Origin: Candidatus Polarisedimenticolaceae bacterium
Lineage (GTDB): Bacteria; Acidobacteriota; Polarisedimenticolia; Polarisedimenticolales; DASRJG01
NCBI GenBank assembly: GCA_036376135.1
Contig: DASVAW010000080.1
Span: 1-41,981, forward strand
DNA length: 41,981 bases
Reading direction: 5' to 3'
Part shown: piece after piece, positions 25,373 through 39,183 of the stretch
Position numbering within the stretch: position 1 is the stretch's first letter
How the letters are laid out: each line of letters starts with the position of its first letter
Position numbers and translations under genes: made by a program
The notes under the pieces: model-generated
The model's database searches: none
Told to the model about the DNA's origin: nothing
The model's input: the letters and a program-made list of their open reading frames with translations, nothing else

Positions 25373-25828
25373 ATGTCGCAAAGAGTCGACTGGCACACCT
25401 ACTTCATGAACATCGCCCGGCAGGCGGCCACTCGCTCCACCTGCGACCGCAAGCACGTCGGGGCCGTCATCGTCCGCGACAAGACCATCCTCTCCACCGG
25501 ATATAACGGCTCGATCCGGGGAATGCCTCACTGCGACGACGTGGGGCACCTGATGGAGAACGGACACTGCGTCGCGACCGTGCACGCCGAGGCGAACGCC
25601 ATCATCCAGGCGGCGAAGAACGGCGTGAGGATCGACGGGGCGGAGCTCTACACCACGGCGTCGCCGTGCTGGAATTGCTTCAAACTCATCGCCAATGCCG
25701 GTATCGGGACGATCTACTACGGCGAGTTCTACCGCGACACGAGGAGCATCGACGTCGCCGCGCAACTCGGGATCGAGCTGATCGATCTGAGCGGGGCCGG
25801 GGCGGGAGAAAAAAAGGCCGGCGCGTGA
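25373..25828 (+). CDS. Deoxycytidylate (dCMP) deaminase
   Basis: The protein has 151 residues. The zinc-binding catalytic site is His71-Ala-Glu73 and SPCWNC (Cys99, Cys102), as in the dCMP/cytidine deaminase superfamily. A cluster of Cys/His residues at His53-Cys54 and His65-Cys66 suggests a second structural zinc, seen in dCMP deaminases. The enzyme makes dUMP from dCMP for thymidylate synthesis. Early residues VDWHTYFMNIARQAATRSTC are the standard family opening. The stop codon sits in the loop of a terminator hairpin at 25813-25840. ComE-type or RibD-type deaminases are less likely because of length and motifs. Confidence 0.9.
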   Translation: MSQRVDWHTYFMNIARQAATRSTCDRKHVGAVIVRDKTILSTGYNGSIRGMPHCDDVGHLMENGHCVATVHAEANAIIQAAKNGVRIDGAELYTTASPCWNCFKLIANAGIGTIYYGEFYRDTRSIDVAAQLGIELIDLSGAGAGEKKAGA

Positions 25829-25840
25829 GCGCCGGCCTTT
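25813..25840. terminator. Bidirectional intrinsic terminator between the dCMP deaminase and the small Lys/Ala gene
   Basis: A perfect 12-base-pair stem (AAAGGCCGGCGC with its complement) closes a GTGA loop. On the minus strand it is followed by a run of seven T, which gives a strong terminator for the small gene at 25871-25942. On the plus strand only three T follow, so it is weaker there. The deaminase stop TGA (25826-25828) lies in the loop. Confidence 0.85.
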
Positions 25841-25870
25841 CATGACGGCCTGATTTCTGTTTCGGCGAGA

Positions 25871-25942
25871 CTACTTCTTGGCGGCCTTCTTCTTGGTGGT
25901 CTTCTTGGCGGCCTTCTTCGCAGCCTTCTTCTTCGTGGCCAT
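25871..25942 (-). CDS. 23-residue Lys/Ala-rich basic peptide (histone H1-tail-like)
   Basis: The gene has 24 codons including the stop. The peptide has 12 Lys, 7 Ala, 3 Thr and Met, in repeats of the form AAKK/TTKK with almost all Lys codons AAG. Such composition is like the C-terminal tail of eukaryotic H1 and of bacterial H1-like (HC1/AlgP-type) proteins, but here there is only the tail. It is real rather than a chance frame: it has a GGAGG site ten bases before the ATG, a good sigma-70 promoter 93-120 bases upstream, and a strong terminator 31 bases after its stop. It should bind nucleic acid or another acidic polymer; this is inference from charge. It is too short to be found by most gene callers. 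Confidence 0.7.
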   Translation of the reverse strand: MATKKKAAKKAAKKTTKKKAAKK

Positions 25943-26005
25943 GTTCTTCGATCCTCCAATCCCCGTATCAGGAGTTTCGAGGCCCTTCCGGGGTCCGGGA
26001 CTCTA

Positions 26006-26027
26006 GATCTGGTATCCGGACCAGATC
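26006..26027. promoter_or_regulatory. Inverted repeat at the transcription start of the Lys/Ala peptide gene
   Basis: GATCTGGT and ACCAGATC form a perfect 8-base dyad around ATCCGG. It lies just after the -10 box, so it would be either the first stem-loop of the leader RNA (protecting its 5' end) or an operator. Both fit a tightly controlled small gene. Confidence 0.5.
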
Positions 26028-26034
26028 GGCCACC

Positions 26035-26062
26035 AATATATAGGGCCGCGGAGTCCCGTCAA
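26035..26062 (-). promoter_or_regulatory. Sigma-70 promoter for the Lys/Ala peptide gene
   Basis: On the minus strand, TTGACG (26062-26057) and TATATT (26040-26035) have a 16-base spacer, each matching consensus at five of six positions. The predicted start near 26028 gives an ~85-base leader before the ATG at 25942. The area is unusually A/T-rich for this window. Confidence 0.6.
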
Positions 26063-26076
26063 GACGTTTTTGGAGG

Positions 26077-27597
26077 TCAGGGGGGCGAGGTCCCCGCCGC
26101 GGCGATCGACGGGATCTCGAGATTCGCCGACTTCAGTTGCCCGACGAACCCGATCTTGTCGATGGCCTTGATGTACGCCTCCTCGCTCGTGACCAGTCCC
26201 TTCTTCACGAGTTCGACGAGGGCGTCGTTCAGCAGGACCATCCCGTGTCGGCGGCCGGTCTGCATGATGCTCGGGATCTGGAACGTCTTTCCCTCGCGGA
26301 TCAGGTTCGCGATCGCGGGGACGCCGATCAGCACTTCCATCGCCGCGACCCGGCCGCCGCCCTTCTTGCGGAGCAGCGACTGCGAGATCACGCCCTTGAG
26401 CGACTCCGAGAGCATCACGCGGATCTGGGACTGCCGGTCGCTGGGGAACTGGTCGATGATGCGATCGACCGTGGACGCGGCGGTCGACGTGTGGAGCGTG
26501 CCGAACACGAGGTGGCCGGTCTCGGCCGTCTCGATCGCGATGGCGATCGTCTCCAGGTCGCGCATCTCGCCGACGAGCACGATGTCGGGATCCTCGCGCA
26601 GGGCGGCCCGCAGCGCGGTCTTGAATCCCCGGGTGTGCGTCCCCACCTCGCGCTGGTTCACGAGGCACTTCTTGTTCGCGTGCACGAACTCGATCGGGTC
26701 CTCGATGGTGATGACGTGATCGGCGCGGTTCCGGTTGACGTAGTCGACGAGAGCCGCCAGGGTGGTCGACTTCCCCGAGCCGGTCGGCCCCGTCACGAGC
26801 ACGAGGCCCTTGGAGAGGTGGCAGAGGTCGAGCACGGCCTTCGACAGGCCGAGGTCCTCCGCCGAGGGGATCCTGCTCGGGATCACGCGGAAGACGCCGC
26901 CGACGCCCTTGCGATCCATGAAGACATTGCAGCGGAAGCGGGCGAGCCCCGGAACCTCGTGCGCGAAATCCGTGTCGTTGCCTTCCTCGAACTCCTGCTT
27001 GAACCGCGGCGGCATCAGCGGGAAGAGCAGGCGCGCCGCCTCCTCCGGAGACAACACGGGGGCGCCCTCGATCCGCACCATGTCCCCGTGAAGGCGCAGC
27101 ATCGGGGTCTCGCCGGCGCTCACGTGCAGGTCGCTGGCTCCCGTCTCCACCAGGTGGAGGAAATACGCCTCGATCGCGGGGGAGCCCGCGCGCACCTTCG
27201 CGGCGTCGAAGCGGGGCTGGCTCGAGGCGGGTGCGGGAACCGCCGGCGGGGGGGGCGCGACGGCGCTGGCCGCCGGCGGCGCGGCCGTCACGGGCCGGGC
27301 CGCCTCCAGGGAGAGTTTGGCCGAGAAACTCCCCGCCGAGCCCCCGGCATCGACGACGAACCGACGCCCGTCGCCGAGCTGGTAGGCGAACCGCGTGGGG
27401 CCGCCGTTCGCCAGGCGGGACTTGTCGCCCCCGAGCTCCGACAGGAGCGTCACGATCTGTGCGCGGCTGAGCACCGACTGGGAGACCGGCCGGTCCCCCT
27501 CGTCGAATCGGAAGGAGGGGCGAACCCCCTCGGAAAGAACGAGTTCTCGAGCGCCCCGGTCGGCGAGGGCGCGGAGCATCGCGTCGAGCTGGGCCAA
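26077..27597 (-). CDS. pilT: PilT-type twitching motility ATPase with an extra N-terminal domain
   Basis: The protein has 506 residues from TTG 27597, which has GGAGG eight bases upstream; typical PilT has about 345-370. The standard part starts near residue 140: [20 protein letters not shown], Walker [10 protein letters not shown] (270-278), the Asp box, Walker B ([11 protein letters not shown]) and the His box [12 protein letters not shown]. It should drive pilus retraction at the inner membrane. Residues 4-95 look like a diverged second copy of the PilT N-terminal PAS-like domain ([17 protein letters not shown] against [17 protein letters not shown]). An Ala/Pro linker joins the copies (about 104-128). 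PilU or PilB are other possibilities, but the motifs fit PilT best. Confidence 0.87.
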
Positions 27598-27738
27598 GTT
27601 GGAACCTCCGGGAGGCGCGGGCTCGCCCGGAATATAGGTTCGGCTTTCCGGTGGAACCAGCGGGGCGCCTTTGCGCCTTCCCCGTCGCGCGTGGCATGCT
27701 TCGTCGGTCGCGCCTGTCGCGACGGAGGTGGTAACCCG

Positions 27739-28416
27739 ATGACGAAACCGTTCTTGGCGGCGTTCGCGATCCTCAGCGTCGCCACCGCATTCGCCGCCGA
27801 TCCGGCACCCGCGCCGGCACCGGCCAAGCCCAAAGGAGACAAGGCCATCGAAGCGATCGACCGCCAGATCCAGGCCCAGAAGATCGACAAGAGCGCGTCG
27901 AACTGGCGGACGCGACTCCCGATGCCCCAGGTGGTCGCCTTCGAGGCCGGCCGCTCGTACTTCGCGCGGATTCAGACCAACAAGGGCCCGATCCGGATCA
28001 AGTTCCTTCCCGAGACCGCGCCGATGCACGTCACGAGCTTCATCTACCTTTCGAAGCTCGGCTTCTACGACGGCCTCTCGTTCCATCGGGTGATCACCGG
28101 CTTCATGGCGCAGGGGGGCTGCCCGCTCGGCACCGGCACCGGCGGCCCCGGCTACAAGTTCAACGGCGAGTTCGACGGACCCGCCCGGCACGACAAGCCC
28201 GGAGTGCTGTCCATGGCGAATGCCGGTCCGGGCACCGACGGAAGCCAGTTCTTCCTGACGTTCGTTCCGACGTCCTGGCTCGACGGCAAACACACGATCT
28301 TCGGCAACGTCGTCGAGGGGATGGACACGCTGAAGGCCCTCGAGGCCGCAGGCTCGCGCTCCGGCCAGACGTCCGAGAAACTCGTGATGGAGAAGGTCTC
28401 CATCGAGGTCGAGTGA
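27739..28416 (+). CDS. Exported cyclophilin-type peptidyl-prolyl isomerase (first)
   Basis: The protein has 225 residues from the ATG at 27739 with GGAGGTGG upstream. Residues 1-20 are a signal peptide (cleavage after AFA), followed by a Pro/Ala linker. The catalytic domain has [13 protein letters not shown] with the key Arg, [13 protein letters not shown], and [16 protein letters not shown], so the active site looks complete. It should help fold exported proteins in the periplasm. The stop overlaps the GTG of a second cyclophilin gene (28413-28416). It is divergent from pilT. Confidence 0.9.
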
Positions 28417-31259: not shown

Positions 31260-31945
31260 GGTTTCGAATCGCCCTCGGGGTGCAGATATCCGTGCTTGAT
31301 GACGCGCCCCTCGCACATGTAGACGACCTGCTCGCAGACGTTCGTGGCCTGGTCTCCGATCCGCTCGAACGCCTTGGCGACGAAGACCAGGCGGAGCGCT
31401 CGCGTGATCGTACGCTGGTCCTCGATCATGAACGAAAGCAGCTCGCGGAACACCTGCTCCATGCGGCCGTCGAGATCGTCGTCCATCGCGATGACGCGCC
31501 GCGCGGTCTCCACGTCCCGCTGGACGAAGGCGTCGAGGGCGCCCCGGACCATCTCCTGCGCGCGTCGCGCCATCACGGGGATGTCGATGTACGGCTTGAG
31601 CTGGGGCTCGTCGTTCAGCTCGAGCGCGCGTTCGGCGATGTTGCAGGCGAGGTCGGCGATGCGCTCCAGGTCCGTCGTGATCTTCATCGCGGTCGTCACG
31701 AACCGCAGGTCGCGCGCGAACGGTTGCTGAAGGCCGAGGACGTGGGTGCACAGGTCGTCGATCTCGAGCTCGAGGCGGTCGACGCGATCGTCGTCCGCGA
31801 TCACCTGGCGCGCGAGGTCGGAGTTCCGGTCCACGAGAGCCTGGACGGAGCGCCCGATCGCCTCCTCGACGAGTCCTCCCATGACGAGGATCTTCTCGGC
31901 GAGAAGGTCCAGCTGCTCTTCGAAGTGGCGTTGCAGCTTCTCCAT
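31256..31945 (-). CDS. phoU: Phosphate transport regulator PhoU
   Basis: The protein has 229 residues; the ATG has GGAGG four bases upstream. It has the two-fold repeat of three-helix bundles with acidic metal-binding motifs: LERIADLACNIAE in the first half and FERIGDQATNVCEQVV in the second. It joins the Pst transporter to PhoR signalling and represses the Pho response when phosphate is plentiful. The gene lies between the porin and phoB genes rather than after pstB, a small change from the enterobacterial order. Confidence 0.95.
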   Translation of the reverse strand: MEKLQRHFEEQLDLLAEKILVMGGLVEEAIGRSVQALVDRNSDLARQVIADDDRVDRLELEIDDLCTHVLGLQQPFARDLRFVTTAMKITTDLERIADLACNIAERALELNDEPQLKPYIDIPVMARRAQEMVRGALDAFVQRDVETARRVIAMDDDLDGRMEQVFRELLSFMIEDQRTITRALRLVFVAKAFERIGDQATNVCEQVVYMCEGRVIKHGYLHPEGDSKP

Positions 31946-31959
31946 GGCCTCCGTCCGGC

Positions 31960-31988
31960 GGGCGCCCCGGCGTCTCGCCGGGACGCCC
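31960..31988 (-). other. Strong hairpin between the porin and phoU genes
   Basis: GGGCG-C-CCCGGCG pairs with CGCCGGG-A-CGCCC around a TCT loop, a 12-pair stem with one mismatch. There is no T-run after it, so it may shorten transcription, protect the end of the porin mRNA, or separate porin levels from those of the regulators, rather than fully stop transcription. Confidence 0.5.
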
Positions 31989-31997
31989 GTTGGTGTA

Positions 31998-33224
31998 TCA
32001 GAAGTTGAGCTGGAACTGCACCCGGAGCTGGGTGTCCTTGACGGACTCCCCGGCGGCCGCCGCGAGGCGGTCGCCGCGGCCCGGCGCGTCGGCCTCGAAC
32101 TCCACCTGCCCGAGGTCCGTCTGGAGCTTGAGATTGTGGGACTTCCAGAACCAGTTGAGCCCGGCGCGCATCTCGGTCACCGTATCGTCGTCCGCGTCGT
32201 TGTCGGCGTCGACCGTGGCGTACCGCAGGCCGAGCTCGAGCTTCTCCGGGATCGCCATCCAGCCGGCCTGCACGTGCCAACCGTCGGAATCGACGTCCTC
32301 GAGCGCCGGGGCGGGATTCCGGCGCTCGGTGGTCTGGTCGTAGTACTCCCCGGTGGCGAAGAGGGTCTTCCACTTCCAGGCGAGCTCGAGGCCGAGCGCC
32401 GTCTGGTCGTCGGCGTCCTCGAAGATGCGCACGGTGCTGCCCGCCGAGGTGAACGTGTCTCCGCCCCGCGTCGCCTCGCCGCCACGGTAGGCGAGCCCGG
32501 CATGGAACACGTGGCTTTCGGGTGCGTCGTTCGTCCCCTCGCGGAGCGCGTACTCCCCGAACGGCTCGAAGTACACGCGGGCCGCGTACATCAGGTCCTG
32601 GTCGTCCTGCCGGTTCGACTCGCCCGAGCCGTTGAAGAACCCGGCCTGGTAGCCGAACTTCTTGGACCCGGTCGTGCCGAACAGCATCGCGCCCGCGTCG
32701 CGGCTGACCGCGAAGACGTTCGTGATGCCGCGATCGACGAACTGCTGGTACTGGTCGCCGACGAGCTCCTGGAGGCTGAACGGCGCCTTGAACTGACCGA
32801 ACCGAACCGAGGCCGCGGGATTCTTGGCCACCTCGAGGTAGGCGTCCTTGAGCTTGTTGGCGCTCTCCCCCGAGGTGCGCCCGATCTCGTAGGAGAAGTT
32901 GTACCTGAGCCACGGCTTGTACATCGTGCCGCGGATGCTCAGGCGGACCCGGGCGACGTCGAACGACGGGGACCAGCCGTCCTCGACGCCCGCCCCGGTG
33001 CTGCCGGCGGGGTCGTTGTCGCCGAGTTCCCGGTCCTCGCCGAGGAACCGGATCTGGCCGTAAGCGCCGAACGTGAGGCTGTTTTCCCCCGACTTGACGG
33101 TGAAGCCGCCCTTGGAGGCGTCGACCGCCGTCGGCGGCGTCTCTTCGCCCGCCGCGAGGGCGGGGATGGCCGCGAGCGCCGCGACCGCGAGGGCCGTCGT
33201 GATCTTGATCGAGAGGTTCGACAT
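31998..33224 (-). CDS. Phosphate-selective porin (OprP/OprO-like)
   Basis: The protein has 408 residues. Residues 1-24 are a signal peptide (AALAAIPALA). The mature part has alternating hydrophobic/polar strands and the family opening VKSGENSLTFGAYGQIRF, RGTMYKPWLRYNFSYEIG and RFGQFKAPFSLQELVGD. It ends in QLRVQFQLNF, with the terminal Phe of outer-membrane beta-barrels. It is expected to form an anion channel for phosphate uptake at low supply. Its gene has its own Pho-box-like repeats (33311-33338) and lies between pstB and phoU, which supports the phosphate role. The ion specificity cannot be seen directly. Confidence 0.85.
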   Translation of the reverse strand: MSNLSIKITTALAVAALAAIPALAAGEETPPTAVDASKGGFTVKSGENSLTFGAYGQIRFLGEDRELGDNDPAGSTGAGVEDGWSPSFDVARVRLSIRGTMYKPWLRYNFSYEIGRTSGESANKLKDAYLEVAKNPAASVRFGQFKAPFSLQELVGDQYQQFVDRGITNVFAVSRDAGAMLFGTTGSKKFGYQAGFFNGSGESNRQDDQDLMYAARVYFEPFGEYALREGTNDAPESHVFHAGLAYRGGEATRGGDTFTSAGSTVRIFEDADDQTALGLELAWKWKTLFATGEYYDQTTERRNPAPALEDVDSDGWHVQAGWMAIPEKLELGLRYATVDADNDADDDTVTEMRAGLNWFWKSHNLKLQTDLGQVEFEADAPGRGDRLAAAAGESVKDTQLRVQFQLNF

Positions 33225-33310
33225 GCGCGAGGTTCCTCCGTGTCGGCTTCGTCACCGCGACGTCGCCGGTCCGTCACGACCGACATCAGAACGTCGCGAT
33301 CGGTCGCGAT

Positions 33311-33338
33311 TGTAACCACGCCGTTAAAACGGCGTGAA
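33311..33338 (-). promoter_or_regulatory. Pho-box-like direct repeats before the porin gene
   Basis: On the minus strand TTCACG, TTAACG and GTTACA begin exactly 11 bases apart (33338, 33327, 33316). This is the spacing of PhoB/PhoP sites, and the hexamers fit the TT(A/C/T)ACA type. A 7-base dyad, CACGCCG/CGGCGTG (33317-33336), overlaps it and is probably a result of the repeats. The ATG is 86 bases downstream. Confidence 0.65.
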
Positions 33339-33346
33339 CGCTCCTC

Positions 33347-34162
33347 CTAGCCGAACCGGCCGGTGATGTAGTCCTCGGTCTGCTTTTTCGCCGGGTTGAT
33401 GAACAGCTTGTCCGTGAGCCCGTATTCGATCAGCCGTCCCATGTACAGGAACGCCGTGTAGTCCGACACGCGCGAGGCCTGCTGCATGTTGTGCGTCACG
33501 ATGACGAGGGTGTAGCGCCCCTTGAGCTCCTGCATCAGCTCCTCGATCTTGGCCGTGGCGAGCGGATCGAGGGCGGAACAGGGCTCGTCGAGCAGGACGA
33601 TCTCCGGCTCGATCGCGATCGCGCGGGCGATGCACAGGCGCTGCTGCTGCCCTCCCGAAAGGCCGAGCGCGCTGTCGGAGAGGCGGTCCTTGACCTCCTC
33701 CCACAACGCGGCGCCGCGCAGGCTCCGCTCGACGATCTCGTCGAGCTCCGCGCGGCGGCGGACGCCGTGGATCCGCGGGCCGTACGCGACGTTCTCGTAG
33801 ATCGACTTCGGGAAGGGGTTGGACTTCTGGAAGACCATTCCGACGCGGCGGCGCAACTCGTTCACGTCCCGCTTGGGGTCGTACAGGCTCTGGCCGTCCA
33901 GGGTGATGTCGCCGGAGATCCGGACGCCGTCCACGAGGTCGTTGAGGCGGTTGAAGCAGCGCAGCAGCGTCGACTTCCCGCACCCCGACGGGCCGATGAA
34001 CGCGGTGATCTTGTGCTCGGGGATCCGCAGCCGCACGTCGTGGAGCGCCTGCGAGGCTCCGTACCAGAGGGACAGGTCCGAGACCTCGAGCAGCGGCCGC
34101 TCGATGACGGGGTCGAGGGCCGGGTCGTGGATCGGCGCGGCCGTCGTGTCGATGGGGGGCAT
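33347..34162 (-). CDS. pstB: Phosphate ABC transporter ATP-binding protein PstB
   Basis: The protein has 271 residues from the ATG at 34162, which has GAGGAACC upstream; the open frame beyond is a shadow of pstA. Walker [10 protein letters not shown] (57-65), the PstB-typical block [20 protein letters not shown], signature LSGGQQQR, Walker [14 protein letters not shown] and the switch His (VTHNMQQA) are all present. It supplies energy for phosphate uptake and is part of the signalling complex with PhoU and PhoR. Confidence 0.97.
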
Positions 34163-34179
34163 GCGTTCGGTTCCTCGGC

Positions 34180-35805
34180 TCAGATCGCGCTGGAAGCGTA
34201 CTTCCGGCGCAGGTGGTTGCGGACCAGAATCGCGACGAGGTTGACGGCCGTCACGACGAGGATGAGGAGCAGGGCCGTGGCGAAGACGAGGGGCTTCGTG
34301 GCCTCGACGTTGGGGCTCTGGAATCCCACGTCGTAGATGTGGAATCCCAGGTGCATGAACTTGCGCTCGAAGTGAACGAACGGGGCGTGGTGGTCCACGG
34401 GAAGCGAGGGCGCGAGCTTCACCATGCCGACGATCATGAGCGGCGCGACCTCGCCGGCGGCGCGGGCCATCGCCAGGATCATCCCCGTCAGGATCCCCGG
34501 CGCGGCCGCGGGGAGGACGACCTTGTAGGTCGTCTCGAACTTCGTCGCACCCAGCGCCAGCGACCCCTCGCGCACGATGCGCGGCACCGCGGCGAGACCC
34601 TCCTCCGTGGCGACGATCACGACGGGAACGGTCAGCAGCGCGAGCGTCAGGGACGCCCACAGGATGCCGCCGGTGCCGAACGTGGGCGTCGGAAGCTGGG
34701 AGGAGTAGAGGAGCCGGTCGATCGATCCGCCGATCAGGTAGACGAAGAAGCCCAGCCCGAACATGCCGAAGACTATCGACGGCACCCCGGCGAGGTTGTT
34801 CACCGCGATCCGGACGACCCGGACCAGGGGGCCCTGCTTCGCGTACTCCCGCAGGTACAGGGCGGCGAGCACGCCGAACGGGGCCACGGCGAACGACATC
34901 AGGAAGACCATCATGACGGTGCCGAAGATCGCCGGGAAGATGCCCCCTTCGGTGTTCGATTCGCGCGGGTCGTCGAAGACGAACTCCCGGATCCGCGACA
35001 GGTAGAGGCCGACCGTCTCCCCGGCGCCCATCGCGTTGGGACGGATCGCGCGGACGATGTTCCCGACGGCGATCTCCTTGCGCTCCCCCGACGCGGTTTC
35101 CATCACGAGCACGTCCGACATCAAAGCCTCGCGCATCGTGAACATCCGCTCGGCGAGCGTGTCGTACTCCCGCTGCTTCTCCTGCTCCCGCGCGGAGAGC
35201 TCCGCGGTGCGGCGCGGGTCCCCGGCGGCCTTCTTGCGCTCCCTGCGCAACTTCTCGATCGCGTGGTTCACGTCCCCGATCTCGCCGCGCTCGAGCCGCT
35301 GGAGATCGCCGACCGCCCTGTGCTTTGCCTCGAGCAGCGGCGGGAGCGCCGCGAGAACCGCCTCGGATCCGGCGGCCACGACCCCCTCGCCGCGGCGCAA
35401 CTCCACGGGGAAGCCGTAGAAGTTCCCCCATTCGAGCCGTTCGAGCATCAGGACGCCGGGCGGCGCCTCGCGGCGCACGATCTGCCGCTCGTCCACCCAT
35501 CGGAAATCGAGGCCCACGAGGTCGCGGTTGCCGATCTTGAGCTGGATCCGGGAGCGTCCCGAGGCGTCCGGGTCCTCCGGCGTCACCGGAAGGGGTTCGC
35601 GATCGTGCACCTCGCCCAGGAGCACGGTGCCGTCCGCGAGGAAGACCCGTTCGACCCGTTTCGGCCAGAAGTAGGCCAATCCCACCGCGGCGAGGAGCGC
35701 GAGCAGTCCCGCGATCAGCAGCAGGTTGAGGGCGAGGGCACCGCCGCACAACGCGGTGAGGGACTCGCCCAGGAGGTCGCTCCGACGACGGCGCGCGTCA
35801 CCCAT
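34180..35805 (-). CDS. pstA: Phosphate ABC transporter permease PstA, long form
   Basis: The protein has 541 residues from the ATG at 35805, just 8 bases after the pstC stop. After one N-terminal membrane segment (about 22-46) there is a ~260-residue extracytoplasmic region with a charged, partly coiled-coil stretch ([13 protein letters not shown]...). The usual PstA permease follows, with [30 protein letters not shown] and the EAA-type loop [25 protein letters not shown] split around Gly. Compact PstA has about 290 residues, so the added domain roughly doubles it, as in several marine and soil Proteobacteria. Confidence 0.92.
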
Positions 35806-35813
35806 CGCGGCGC

Positions 35814-38084
35814 CTACAGCTGCGAGTACCGGCGACGCAGGCGCTGCCGGACGATCTCCGCGACCGTGTTGACCGCGAAGGTGACGAGGAAGAGAAGCAG
35901 ACCCGCGAGGAAGAGGGTCCGGTACAGCGTGCTCCCCACGGGGGCCTCGGGGATCTCGACCGCGATGTTCGCGGAGAGCGTGCGGAAGCCGTTGAACGCG
36001 CTCCAGTCCATGATCGGCGTGTTGCCCGTGGCCATCAGGACGATCATCGTCTCGCCCACCGCCCGGCCGAATCCGACCATGATCGCGGAGAAGATCCCCG
36101 GGCTCGCGGTCGGCAGGACCACCCGGGTGACGGTCTGCCATCGGTTCGCCCCGAGGGCGAGCGACCCGGAAACGAGGTTCAGCGGGACGTTCGAGAACGC
36201 GTCCTCCGCGATGGCGAAGATGATCGGGATGACCGCGAATCCCATCGCCAGCCCGACGACGACCGCATTGCGCTGGTCGTACCGCAGCCCCGTCGTCTCC
36301 AGCAGCCAGACCTGGAAGTTCCCGCCGAACGCCACGGAAGCGAACGCCGGAGCGAGCTCCGCGGCGAGCCATGCGCCGGAGGCGAGCGCGAGGGCGTAGA
36401 CGCCCACCTCCGCCCCCGTCGGGATCCGGTTGCGCCACGGGCGGGGCAGGCGCGACCAGGCCAGCCCCGCCGCCAGGACCGCGATCGTCGTGAACGGGAC
36501 GGCGAGCAGCAGGGCGGGGAAGTGCTTCTCGACGATCGGGGCGAGCCAGAGGCCTCCGAGGAAGCCCAGCACCACGCTCGGGAGGGCCGCCATGATCTCC
36601 ACGGTAGGCTTGACGTAGCGCTTGAGCGACGGGTGCATGAACTGGGAGGTGTACATCGCGCCGAACACGCCGAGCGGAATCGCGAGGAGCAGGGAGTAGA
36701 CCGTCGCCTTGAGGGTGCCGAACACGAGCGGCGTCAGGCTCAGCTTCGACTCGAAGTCGTCCGTTCCTCCCGTGGACTGCCAGACGTGTGCGGGCTCGGG
36801 ATAACTCTCGTACCAGACCTTGCCGAACAGGGCCTTCCAGCCGACCTCCGGGTGCGGGTTCTCGACGTCGTAGACGCCGACGACGCGGTCGGAGGCGGCG
36901 TAGAGCGCGTCGGCCTTGGGGGCGAAGAGCAGCGCACGGACGGGCGTATGCGGCGTCGAGCCACGCCAGAGGGTCCGAGCGGAGGTGGAGTAGTAGAGGC
37001 CCAGGCCTCCCTCCGCGTCGGCCACCGCGAACCCCTTGTCCCGGGGGGAGGGCGTGATCCGCACGATGGGTGCGCCGTGCGGCGCGAAGTCCCGGATCCG
37101 GCGCATCCGGAAGACGTCGTCGCCGCCGCGCGTCTGGAACCAGACCGAGACCGACCCGTCCGCTCCCCCCACGATCACCGAACGATCCCCCAGGAGGAGC
37201 GCGAGGGCGGCGACGGGACCGCTCGTCGCAGGGAAGATCTCGGGGTCGCCGGGGCTGCCGTCGCTCGCCTTCCAATGGAGCAATTCCCCCGTCTCGGAAC
37301 CGGCGTACACGTCGCGGAGGTCGTTGGACGCGACGATCCGGACGAGCCGACGTCCGGACGCCGTCGCCGATGTCCGACTCTCGACGGACGATCGCTCTCC
37401 CGTGATCGCGTTCTCACGTACTTCGAGCCGAACGAACGCCAGATCCCCCGACGCGGTCTGGGCGAGCACGGAGGCCGAGCCGCTCTCCCCCAGGATCGCC
37501 GCGAACGCTCCCAGCGGGCGACCCTCGGGATCGACGTGGAAGACGATCGGCGCGCCGACGTCGGGGGTGACCTCGCGCGCCCCGGTGTTCGTGTCGAACG
37601 CGACGTCCCAGCCGATCCGCACCGCGGCGACGCGACCGTCGTCGGTCGAGCCGGCGAGGACCGGGGTCCCGGTGGCCGCGACGACGGCGGCCAGTCGAGG
37701 AGAGACTCCGTCGGGGCCGGGGGGGAACAGCGGGGCCTCGGACGCGAGGCCGCCGTCGGACTTCCGGAAGATACGGATCACACCGTCGAGTCCGAGCGCG
37801 GCCACATGGGTGCGGTGTTCGTCGACGAGCACCGCCTCGGCTGCGTCGGAGGGAAGCGGAATCGACTCCACGGGGGTCACGTCGGCGCCGCCGAGCAGCG
37901 GGACCACCTCGATGAGGATGAACACGAGGATGCCGAGGACGCTCGCGATGATGCCGAGTCCTCCGGCCGTGACGACGCTGCGCGCCGCGCGGTCGACCAG
38001 GAGCCGGGAGCGGCTCGTGCGGGCGACGGCGCGGCGCGGAGTCGCGTCCGCACGCGCGGGCGGGGGGTCGGTCAGGCTCGCCAT
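35814..38084 (-). CDS. pstC: Phosphate ABC transporter permease PstC with a large periplasmic propeller-like domain
   Basis: The protein has 756 residues; compact PstC has about 310. After a first membrane segment (about 40-65), residues about 75-430 contain short repeated beta units such as HVAALGLDGVIRIF, SVIVGGADGSVSVWF and GFAVADAEGGLGLYY, like a WD/beta-propeller fold. The permease core follows (about 450-750), with LPSVVLGFLGGLW and SLALGANRWQTVTRVVLPTA. Long PstC proteins of this kind are known in Gram-negative bacteria; the extra domain is thought to face the periplasm and may take part in substrate handling or sensing. No strong ribosome site is seen. Confidence 0.92.
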   Translation of the reverse strand: MASLTDPPPARADATPRRAVARTSRSRLLVDRAARSVVTAGGLGIIASVLGILVFILIEVVPLLGGADVTPVESIPLPSDAAEAVLVDEHRTHVAALGLDGVIRIFRKSDGGLASEAPLFPPGPDGVSPRLAAVVAATGTPVLAGSTDDGRVAAVRIGWDVAFDTNTGAREVTPDVGAPIVFHVDPEGRPLGAFAAILGESGSASVLAQTASGDLAFVRLEVRENAITGERSSVESRTSATASGRRLVRIVASNDLRDVYAGSETGELLHWKASDGSPGDPEIFPATSGPVAALALLLGDRSVIVGGADGSVSVWFQTRGGDDVFRMRRIRDFAPHGAPIVRITPSPRDKGFAVADAEGGLGLYYSTSARTLWRGSTPHTPVRALLFAPKADALYAASDRVVGVYDVENPHPEVGWKALFGKVWYESYPEPAHVWQSTGGTDDFESKLSLTPLVFGTLKATVYSLLLAIPLGVFGAMYTSQFMHPSLKRYVKPTVEIMAALPSVVLGFLGGLWLAPIVEKHFPALLLAVPFTTIAVLAAGLAWSRLPRPWRNRIPTGAEVGVYALALASGAWLAAELAPAFASVAFGGNFQVWLLETTGLRYDQRNAVVVGLAMGFAVIPIIFAIAEDAFSNVPLNLVSGSLALGANRWQTVTRVVLPTASPGIFSAIMVGFGRAVGETMIVLMATGNTPIMDWSAFNGFRTLSANIAVEIPEAPVGSTLYRTLFLAGLLLFLVTFAVNTVAEIVRQRLRRRYSQL

Positions 38085-38115
38085 GTTCGTCGGGCGTGCG
38101 GATGGTAACGCAGGG

Positions 38116-39084
38116 TCAGTTCAGTTTCGCGAGCTCGTCTTCGATGACCTTCGCGGGAAGGGGCAGGTACCCGTCCTTGACGACGATCTCCTGACCCTCC
38201 TTCGAGAGGATGTACCGCAGGAACTCGCGGGTGAGGGGGTCGATCGGCTTGTTCGGAGCGCGGTTCACGTAGACGAAGAGGAACCGGGAGAGCGGGTACT
38301 TCCCGGAGAGGACGTTGTCGGCCTCGTCGCTGTAGTAGGGCCCGCCGGCCTTGCTCGCGAGCTTCATCGCCTTCACGCCGGAGGTCTTGTACCCGATCCC
38401 GCTGTACCCCATCGCGAACTTGTCCCCGGTGACCCCCTGGACCACCGCCGCCGAGCCCGGCTGCTCCTTCACGGAGTCCCGGTAGTCGCCCTTGTACAGC
38501 GCATGCTCCTTGAAATAGCCGTAGGTCCCCGAGGCGGAGTTGCGGCCGTAGAGGCTGATCGGCTTCCCCGCCCACTCGCCCGTGAGGCCCAGGTCTCCCC
38601 AGGTCGTGATGTCCTTCTCGAATCCCCCCTTGCGGGTCTTGGAGAAGACGGCGTCCACCTGGGGAAGGGTGAGCTCCGCGAGCGGATTGTCCTTGTGGAC
38701 GTACACGGCGAGGCCGTCGACCGAGGTCTTCACCGGGGTCGGCTTGTAGCCGAACTTCTTCTCGAATTCGTCGATCTCCGACTGCTTCATCGGCCGGCTC
38801 ATCGGGCCGAGCTGCGCGGTCGCGGAGATGAGGGCGGGGGGCGCGGTCGAGGAGCCCTTCCCCTCGATCTGGATCTTGACGTTCGGGTACTGCTTCTGGA
38901 ACCCCTCGGCCCAGAGGGTCATGAGGTTGTTCAAGGTGTCCGAGCCGATCGAGTTCAGGCTTCCGGAGATGCCGCTCGTCTTCTTGTAGGGCTTGATGTC
39001 CTTGTCGAGCTTGACCGCCTGCGCCATCGCGGGGGTCGTCAGGGCGACGGCCGTCAGGGTCGTCACGGCGAGCATGCGCTTCAT
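38116..39084 (-). CDS. pstS: Phosphate-binding periplasmic protein PstS
   Basis: The protein has 322 residues; the ATG has GGAGAACGAGG upstream. Residues 1-22 are a signal peptide (cleavage after AMAQA or AMA). Phosphate-binding features of this family are SIGSDTLNN, GKGSSTAPPAL, MSRPMKQSE and GRNSASGTYGYF. It is of the short PstS type used with long PstC/PstA. It is first of the pstSCAB unit and should be the most strongly induced gene under phosphate limitation. Confidence 0.94.
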   Translation of the reverse strand: MKRMLAVTTLTAVALTTPAMAQAVKLDKDIKPYKKTSGISGSLNSIGSDTLNNLMTLWAEGFQKQYPNVKIQIEGKGSSTAPPALISATAQLGPMSRPMKQSEIDEFEKKFGYKPTPVKTSVDGLAVYVHKDNPLAELTLPQVDAVFSKTRKGGFEKDITTWGDLGLTGEWAGKPISLYGRNSASGTYGYFKEHALYKGDYRDSVKEQPGSAAVVQGVTGDKFAMGYSGIGYKTSGVKAMKLASKAGGPYYSDEADNVLSGKYPLSRFLFVYVNRAPNKPIDPLTREFLRYILSKEGQEIVVKDGYLPLPAKVIEDELAKLN

Positions 39085-39155
39085 GCCTCGTTCTCCTTTT
39101 ACGTGGAGGCCGGACGGCCTCGCCCCGTCATTCGAGGCGACGAAGACGTCACGAA

Positions 39156-39183
39156 CGTGAACTCCGTGTTAAAGGCCTGTTAA
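39156..39183 (-). promoter_or_regulatory. Pho-box-like direct repeats before pstS
   Basis: On the minus strand TTAACA (39183-39178), TTAACA (39172-39167) and TTCACG (39161-39156) start exactly 11 bases apart. This is close to the TT(A/C/T)ACA-N5 repeats bound by PhoP/PhoB. The ATG of pstS is 72 bases after the last repeat. The plus-strand gene at 39304 could also be affected. Another dyad, GTCACG-CAAC-CGTGAC, lies at 39211-39226. Confidence 0.7.

Follow-up and report, generated by a model that had tools for sequence, protein, structure and literature searches.

The window, meaning the whole stretch of 41,981 nucleotides that we analysed, carries on its minus strand a gene for a 23-residue Lys/Ala peptide. 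An earlier note had described an autonomous gene here, with its own promoter, inverted repeat, ribosome site and terminator, and we located all of these parts on the minus strand. In what follows G000 is the window's own genome, the other G numbers are related genomes, f stands for families and L for loci. The features are:

25942..25871, minus: ORF of 23 codons plus a TAG stop, MATKKKAAKKAAKKTTKKKAAKK, with variants in relatives
26062-26057, minus: -35 element TTGACG, from a sigma70-type promoter scan
26040-26035, minus: -10 element TATATT, with a 16-nt spacer to the -35, from the same scan
26006-26013/26020-26027, minus: perfect 8-bp inverted repeat GATCTGGT/ACCAGATC, just 3' of the -10, at the predicted 5' end of the transcript
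25993-25989 with 25965-25961, minus: putative second leader stem, CCCCG with CGGGG, just 5' of the Shine-Dalgarno (SD)
25957-25953, minus: Shine-Dalgarno GGAGG, with the ATG 10 nt downstream
25809..25840, minus: intrinsic terminator with a perfect 12-bp stem (25813-25824/25829-25840), a 4-nt loop and 7 U
25373..25828, plus: dCMP/cytidine deaminase gene (Pfam PF00383), the convergent and conserved neighbour
26077..28293, minus: PilT-like ATPase ORF (Pfam PF00437), upstream on the same strand; the true start is inside the ORF

The promoter is the sole sigma70-type match in 500 bp (the shuffle mean was 0.1). The pattern TTGAC-N14-20-TATANT matches once in the 42-kb window, at this promoter, and nine times in the whole 4.38-Mb genome, where two of the nine matches front the two peptide genes (the second gene is described below). 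The -35 of the window copy, TTGACG, is TTGACA in relatives of both copies. The 8-bp inverted repeat, which is kept in G002 and G004 and has one mismatch in G001, is a candidate 5' hairpin or operator. The terminator serves both the peptide gene and the convergent deaminase gene; our consensus terminator scanner did not call this 12-bp stem with 7 U, probably owing to the scanner's rule for stem ends. With 12 Lys, 7 Ala and 3 Thr in 23 residues and no Pro, the peptide is indeed more than half Lys, and no other M-started ORF of about 15-41 aa in the window reaches 40% Lys.

The opposite strand is open for 42 codons (25878-26006, plus strand, LAAFFLVVFLAAFF..), and this antisense hydrophobic ORF could be taken for the real gene. 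We give that reading almost no weight, as it is the Lys/Ala strand that carries the promoter, SD, stop and terminator, all of which are conserved in relatives. We found no promoter or SD on the plus strand and rejected the antisense ORF as a membrane protein gene.

A DNA search of G000 found a second unit, on contig C10, that codes for the identical 23-residue peptide. This copy B has the promoter TTGACA-16-TATATT, and its leader and terminator are also unlike those of the window copy (copy A). The coding sequences of the two copies differ at four sites, all of them third positions and all synonymous, and the stop is TAG in copy A and TAA in copy B. With 20% of the possible single changes being synonymous, the naive probability of four out of four is about 0.0017.

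Pattern searches of the related genomes found two copies of 19 aa each in G001, one of 21 aa in G002, copies of 24 and 25 aa in G004, one of 17 aa in G013 and one of 19 aa in G016; in f1 and f2 the tiny peptides are 19-25 aa. We also checked whether the frame is kept in relatives, as the earlier note had suggested, and it is. Copy A is convergent with the dCMP deaminase gene in all five of the syntenic loci, which come from three families (the window, G001, G002, G004 and G013), and the PilT-like gene is upstream of it in the window, G001 and G002. Judged by its position, the type A gene is orthologous across these five genomes. Three f12 genomes have ORFs of 20 aa after an ATA codon. In these loci (L051, L052 and L053, from G030, G024 and G019) the ATA is in the ATG position after a perfect SD, AAAGGAGGTGA, and the in-frame GTG codons, located 6 or 9 nt upstream, either overlap the SD or leave it little room. 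AUA initiation is rare and IF3-sensitive, and it is possible for these tiny ORFs.

A short Lys-rich run of this kind might also be a Lys-sensing leader peptide, that is, an attenuator of a neighbouring gene, and lysA is downstream of the tiny gene in one planctomycete (L091). However, a terminator follows the ORF. We rejected an attenuator at the window locus because the next gene is convergent and there is nothing to attenuate, which is also the case at all of the syntenic loci and at many others, and we consider this explanation extremely improbable.

Copy B is located behind an NtrC-type regulator gene in G000, G001 and G004. In G018 and G025 a homologous NtrC gene is followed by a gene for a Lys-rich protein (about 96 aa in the first genome, about 127 aa in the second), with the promoter TTGACAAG..CATATT. 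We believe that the tiny peptide and these H1-like proteins of the usual size are probably length variants of one gene, with the orthology drawn from one neighbour and a similar promoter. Separately, contig C100 of G000 (L003) codes for an H1-like Lys/Ala/Pro protein of about 140 aa, MAKAAKKKAKKAPKRKV..., and G001 (L044) has a syntenic-looking counterpart of 149 aa.

We scanned GTDB genomes with the pattern SD-ATG-Ala-x-Lys3-Ala-x-Lys ... Lys-Lys-stop and found at least 119 matching stretches, where about 1e-4 chance matches would be expected in the whole collection (our own arithmetic, with equal base frequencies). From among the GTDB matches listed we fetched 80 loci, and 71 of them have stand-alone ORFs of 17-27 aa. 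The labels of their MAGs cover about a dozen phyla (Alpha-, Beta-, Gamma- and Deltaproteobacteria, Bdellovibrionales/Oligoflexia, Gemmatimonadota, Eisenbacteria, Eremiobacterota, Acidobacteria, Verrucomicrobia, Planctomycetes, Nitrospirae, Nitrospinota, Dormiibacterota, Caenarcanales and Uhrbacteria), and some labels are possibly wrong, such as Planktophila for L101, which looks proteobacterial. In the window's own phylum the strict pattern occurs in 6 of 396 genomes, so the distribution is patchy. We rejected a phage origin, with one matching IMG/VR contig against at least 119 GTDB stretches. The twin gene for the identical peptide, the positional conservation in the order and class and the recurrence across phyla together put the gene beyond chance, and we consider the window ORF to be confirmed, by sequence comparison, as a real, self-contained, monocistronic gene.

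The neighbours of the tiny genes in other phyla are rpiA/6S RNA, nrdJ, gatB, lysA or pyrD. The tiny gene adjoins rpiA in six loci of gamma-proteobacterial MAGs (L097, L115, L125, L126, L139 and L147), and 6S RNA is nearby in L097, L115 and L125. In four beta-proteobacterial loci (L109, L114, L120 and L140), lysA is upstream of the tiny gene.

Lys makes up 57.6% and Ala 28.5% of the residues encoded by the ORFs of the GTDB scan, and the net charge ranges from +10 to +18. Outside the residues fixed by the pattern, Lys recurs with a period of five (lag-5 z = 11.7), so the tiny peptides have consecutive Lys-rich pentamers, as Hc2 and BpH1 do. Lys codon choice tracks the G+C of the locus (r = 0.73), and one 21-mer peptide is encoded by five different DNAs, which together point to constraint at the level of the protein. 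The functional product could instead be a small RNA, with the ORF incidental: the transcript is short with a hairpin at each end, and the whole transcription unit folds with z = -3.35. Against this are the same codon pattern and shared peptides, the synonymous changes and the TAG/TAA stops between copies A and B, leaders that vary by lineage while the class of peptide is kept, and no Rfam match to the unit. We rejected a product that is only an sRNA on the pattern of synonymous substitution, and we regard the small RNA explanation as very unlikely.

The earlier note had expected annotation to miss the gene, and there is no model for it in Pfam, NCBIfam or Rfam. Profile searches with Pfam and NCBIfam matched none of the tiny peptides. 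Rfam had no matches in the window, and on 17 related loci it found only 6S RNA, tRNA and a group II intron, all away from the tiny gene. The exact peptide strings did not occur in the open-access papers searched, which is weak evidence of novelty as subscription papers were outside the search; the single related item was a synthetic antimicrobial design.

Eight leaders from Gemmatimonadota form two predicted hairpins, the second of which encloses the SD. In an alignment that we built without reference to structure, 97.5% of the cells pair and four pairs are changed on both sides, values that none of 500 shuffles reached, in a test that relatedness inflates. One of the four double changes falls in the SD hairpin. 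The evidence that this hairpin occludes the SD is good but not final, and covarying hairpins that hide the SD suggest translational control. A two-hairpin leader with the loop ACCGGG is conserved at L112, L122, L135, L137, L151, L156, L159 and L163; it is a candidate for a new cis-regulatory RNA, and Rfam had no match to it in the four loci that we searched (L112, L122, L151 and L116). The conserved leader of type A could fold into a hairpin and an interleaved stem, with pseudoknot potential in relatives. Its stem pairs are conserved with zero compensatory changes in four sequences, and its folding energy is no better than that of shuffles. We therefore treated a pseudoknot in the window leader, which is convincing by eye, as unproven.

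The structured leaders bear on whether the product is a basic peptide that associates with RNA or the ribosome. One model would be the ribosomal proteins bTHX, bS22 and bL37, which are stand-alone and very basic, at less than 40 aa, and another an RNA chaperone; such a peptide could possibly feed back on its own leader. The strong promoters and SDs, which suggest high housekeeping expression, and the covarying SD-occluding hairpins in Gemmatimonadota would fit. There is also a precedent in Hc2, which binds RNA and represses translation (PMC2848022). However, the composition of our peptide differs from that of the ribosomal proteins, as pentameric Lys repeats without Arg or aromatics are untypical of bTHX, bS22 and bL37, and the type A leader has no compensatory changes. 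We consider this explanation unlikely, but less so than the small RNA.

The likeness to an isolated histone H1 tail that was proposed for the peptide holds at the level of the Lys pentamers. Hc2 and BpH1 are built from Lys-rich pentamers, and their length varies with repeat number (PMC2848022). Both Hc2 (HctB, from Chlamydia) and BpH1 (from Bordetella) belong to Pfam PF07382 (HC2) and, like the tiny peptides, consist of Lys/Ala-rich pentamers with no globular domain, but they are 165-237 and 182-206 aa long, compared with 17-27 aa for the tiny peptides. A Pfam search with the MATKKKAAKKAAKKTTKKKAAKK peptide gave 0 families at E<=1, and so no match to PF07382, though 23 residues may be too few for the profile to score. 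The HC2 profile gave E=0.51 and 6e-4 for the longest relatives, under the curated cut-off, and the weak sub-threshold match is confined to a 56-aa relative. By these profile scores the tiny peptide would not be a formal member of HC2. Homology to Hc2 and BpH1 is not established, since low-complexity Lys/Ala sequence can converge.

Another comparison is with AlgP and PhaF of Pseudomonas, the C-terminal domains of which are disordered DNA-binding Lys/Ala tails that we liken to the tiny peptide (PMC9239181). They differ in that AlgP and PhaF are large proteins, which have an N-terminal domain besides their KPAA repeats, while the tiny peptides are almost without Pro and have no other domain; neither KPAA repeats of this type nor an N-terminal helical or phasin domain is present in the 23-aa ORF.

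In f3, f5 and f11 a bacterial histone fold is preceded by a Lys/Ala tail similar in kind to the tiny peptide. With phmmer, the tailed domain matched solved bacterial histones (9qt0, E=3.7e-8; 8cmp, E=0.011), while Pfam had no match on one tailed-histone sequence. Known bacterial histones include Bdellovibrio HBb (PDB 8cmp, 9qt0); the tiny peptide itself has no histone fold. Profile A3 found no histone fold in f1, f2, f7 or f12, which includes the window's genome. The fused tails show, at the sequence level, the company that such tails keep; they do not make the tiny peptide the remnant of a histone. A histone with an N-terminal Lys/Ala tail occurs in 12 genomes of the class (L069, L070 and L074-L085). 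By family, the occurrence of the tiny peptide and that of the tailed histone suggest a complementary pattern, but we do not claim one, as G016 seems to have both and relatedness between families confounds the comparison.

The earlier note had tentatively tied the peptide to the Pho regulon and polyphosphate (polyP), and this part has more behind it in the window's order than the window by itself suggests, but did not extend to other phyla. Copy B lies between ppk1 (which ends 140 nt upstream) and a convergent ppx in G001, adjoins CHAD, then ppx and a PhoB-like regulator in G000, and adjoins a pstB-like ABC ATPase gene, phoU and phoB in G004. Upstream of copy A, the window has a Pho cluster (31283-39168, minus strand) with pstS-like, pst permease-like and phoU genes; a porin-like ORF is located at 32001-33251 in the same region. 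The neighbours of copy B give circumstantial support to the polyP idea in this order. At the 71 tiny loci of other phyla, ppk1, ppx, CHAD and phoU were absent from the fetched stretch at every locus, so we rejected Ppk/Pho linkage as a general rule, and on this evidence polyP is not a general partner. A polyP-specific factor would behave as a free AlgP-like tail that condenses or positions polyP granules together with Ppk1, Ppx and CHAD proteins. AlgP, which is H1-like, is found on polyP granules and determines how they are spaced, and CHAD proteins associate with polyP (PMC9239181). Besides the different neighbours elsewhere, this explanation has against it that the three linked genomes share ancestry and are not independent, and that the near-consensus promoter shows no evident need for PhoB. 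We consider it doubtful, though the likeliest of the alternatives. Linkage in three genomes of the order and at none of the 71 loci elsewhere points to a general polycation, which may have a lineage-specific role with polyP.

The explanation that we favour, with somewhat better than even confidence, is that this is a gene for a miniature H1-like polycation, most likely abundant, which would coat or condense polyanions in the manner of the Lys-rich repeats in Hc2, BpH1, AlgP and PhaF. The near-consensus sigma70 promoter would give strong, constitutive transcription, which the gene's own terminator would end. The product would be a short disordered peptide of about four Lys pentamers (KKKAA/KKKAT type) with a net charge of about +12 and no folded domain. 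It may bind polyanions electrostatically and form a helix on binding, as Hc2, BpH1 and AlgP do through their Lys-rich repeats; by analogy, we infer that it works like the tails of these proteins. The target would be nucleoid DNA first, with RNA and polyP as alternatives. A point against is that, at physiological salt, DNA is bound far less strongly by 23 residues than by a tail of 150-200. High expression, polyanion binding and a physiological role are what we infer from the gene. A wider idea, which we likewise consider doubtful, is that the ribosomally made mini-polycations of 17-27 aa, with around four Lys pentamers and overlooked by annotation, are dedicated protein counter-ions of polyanions across phyla, analogous to polyamines, dosed by SD-hiding leaders that are maybe read by the peptide, and tied to polyP in this order.

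If the favoured explanation is true, many bacteria make a near-minimal, free-standing H1 tail that gene callers and family databases have missed. It would offer a simple natural system for asking how far H1-like and polyP-granule function is a matter of pure charge patterning, and also whether structured leaders regulate such peptides. The gene is small enough for easy synthesis, deletion and titration.
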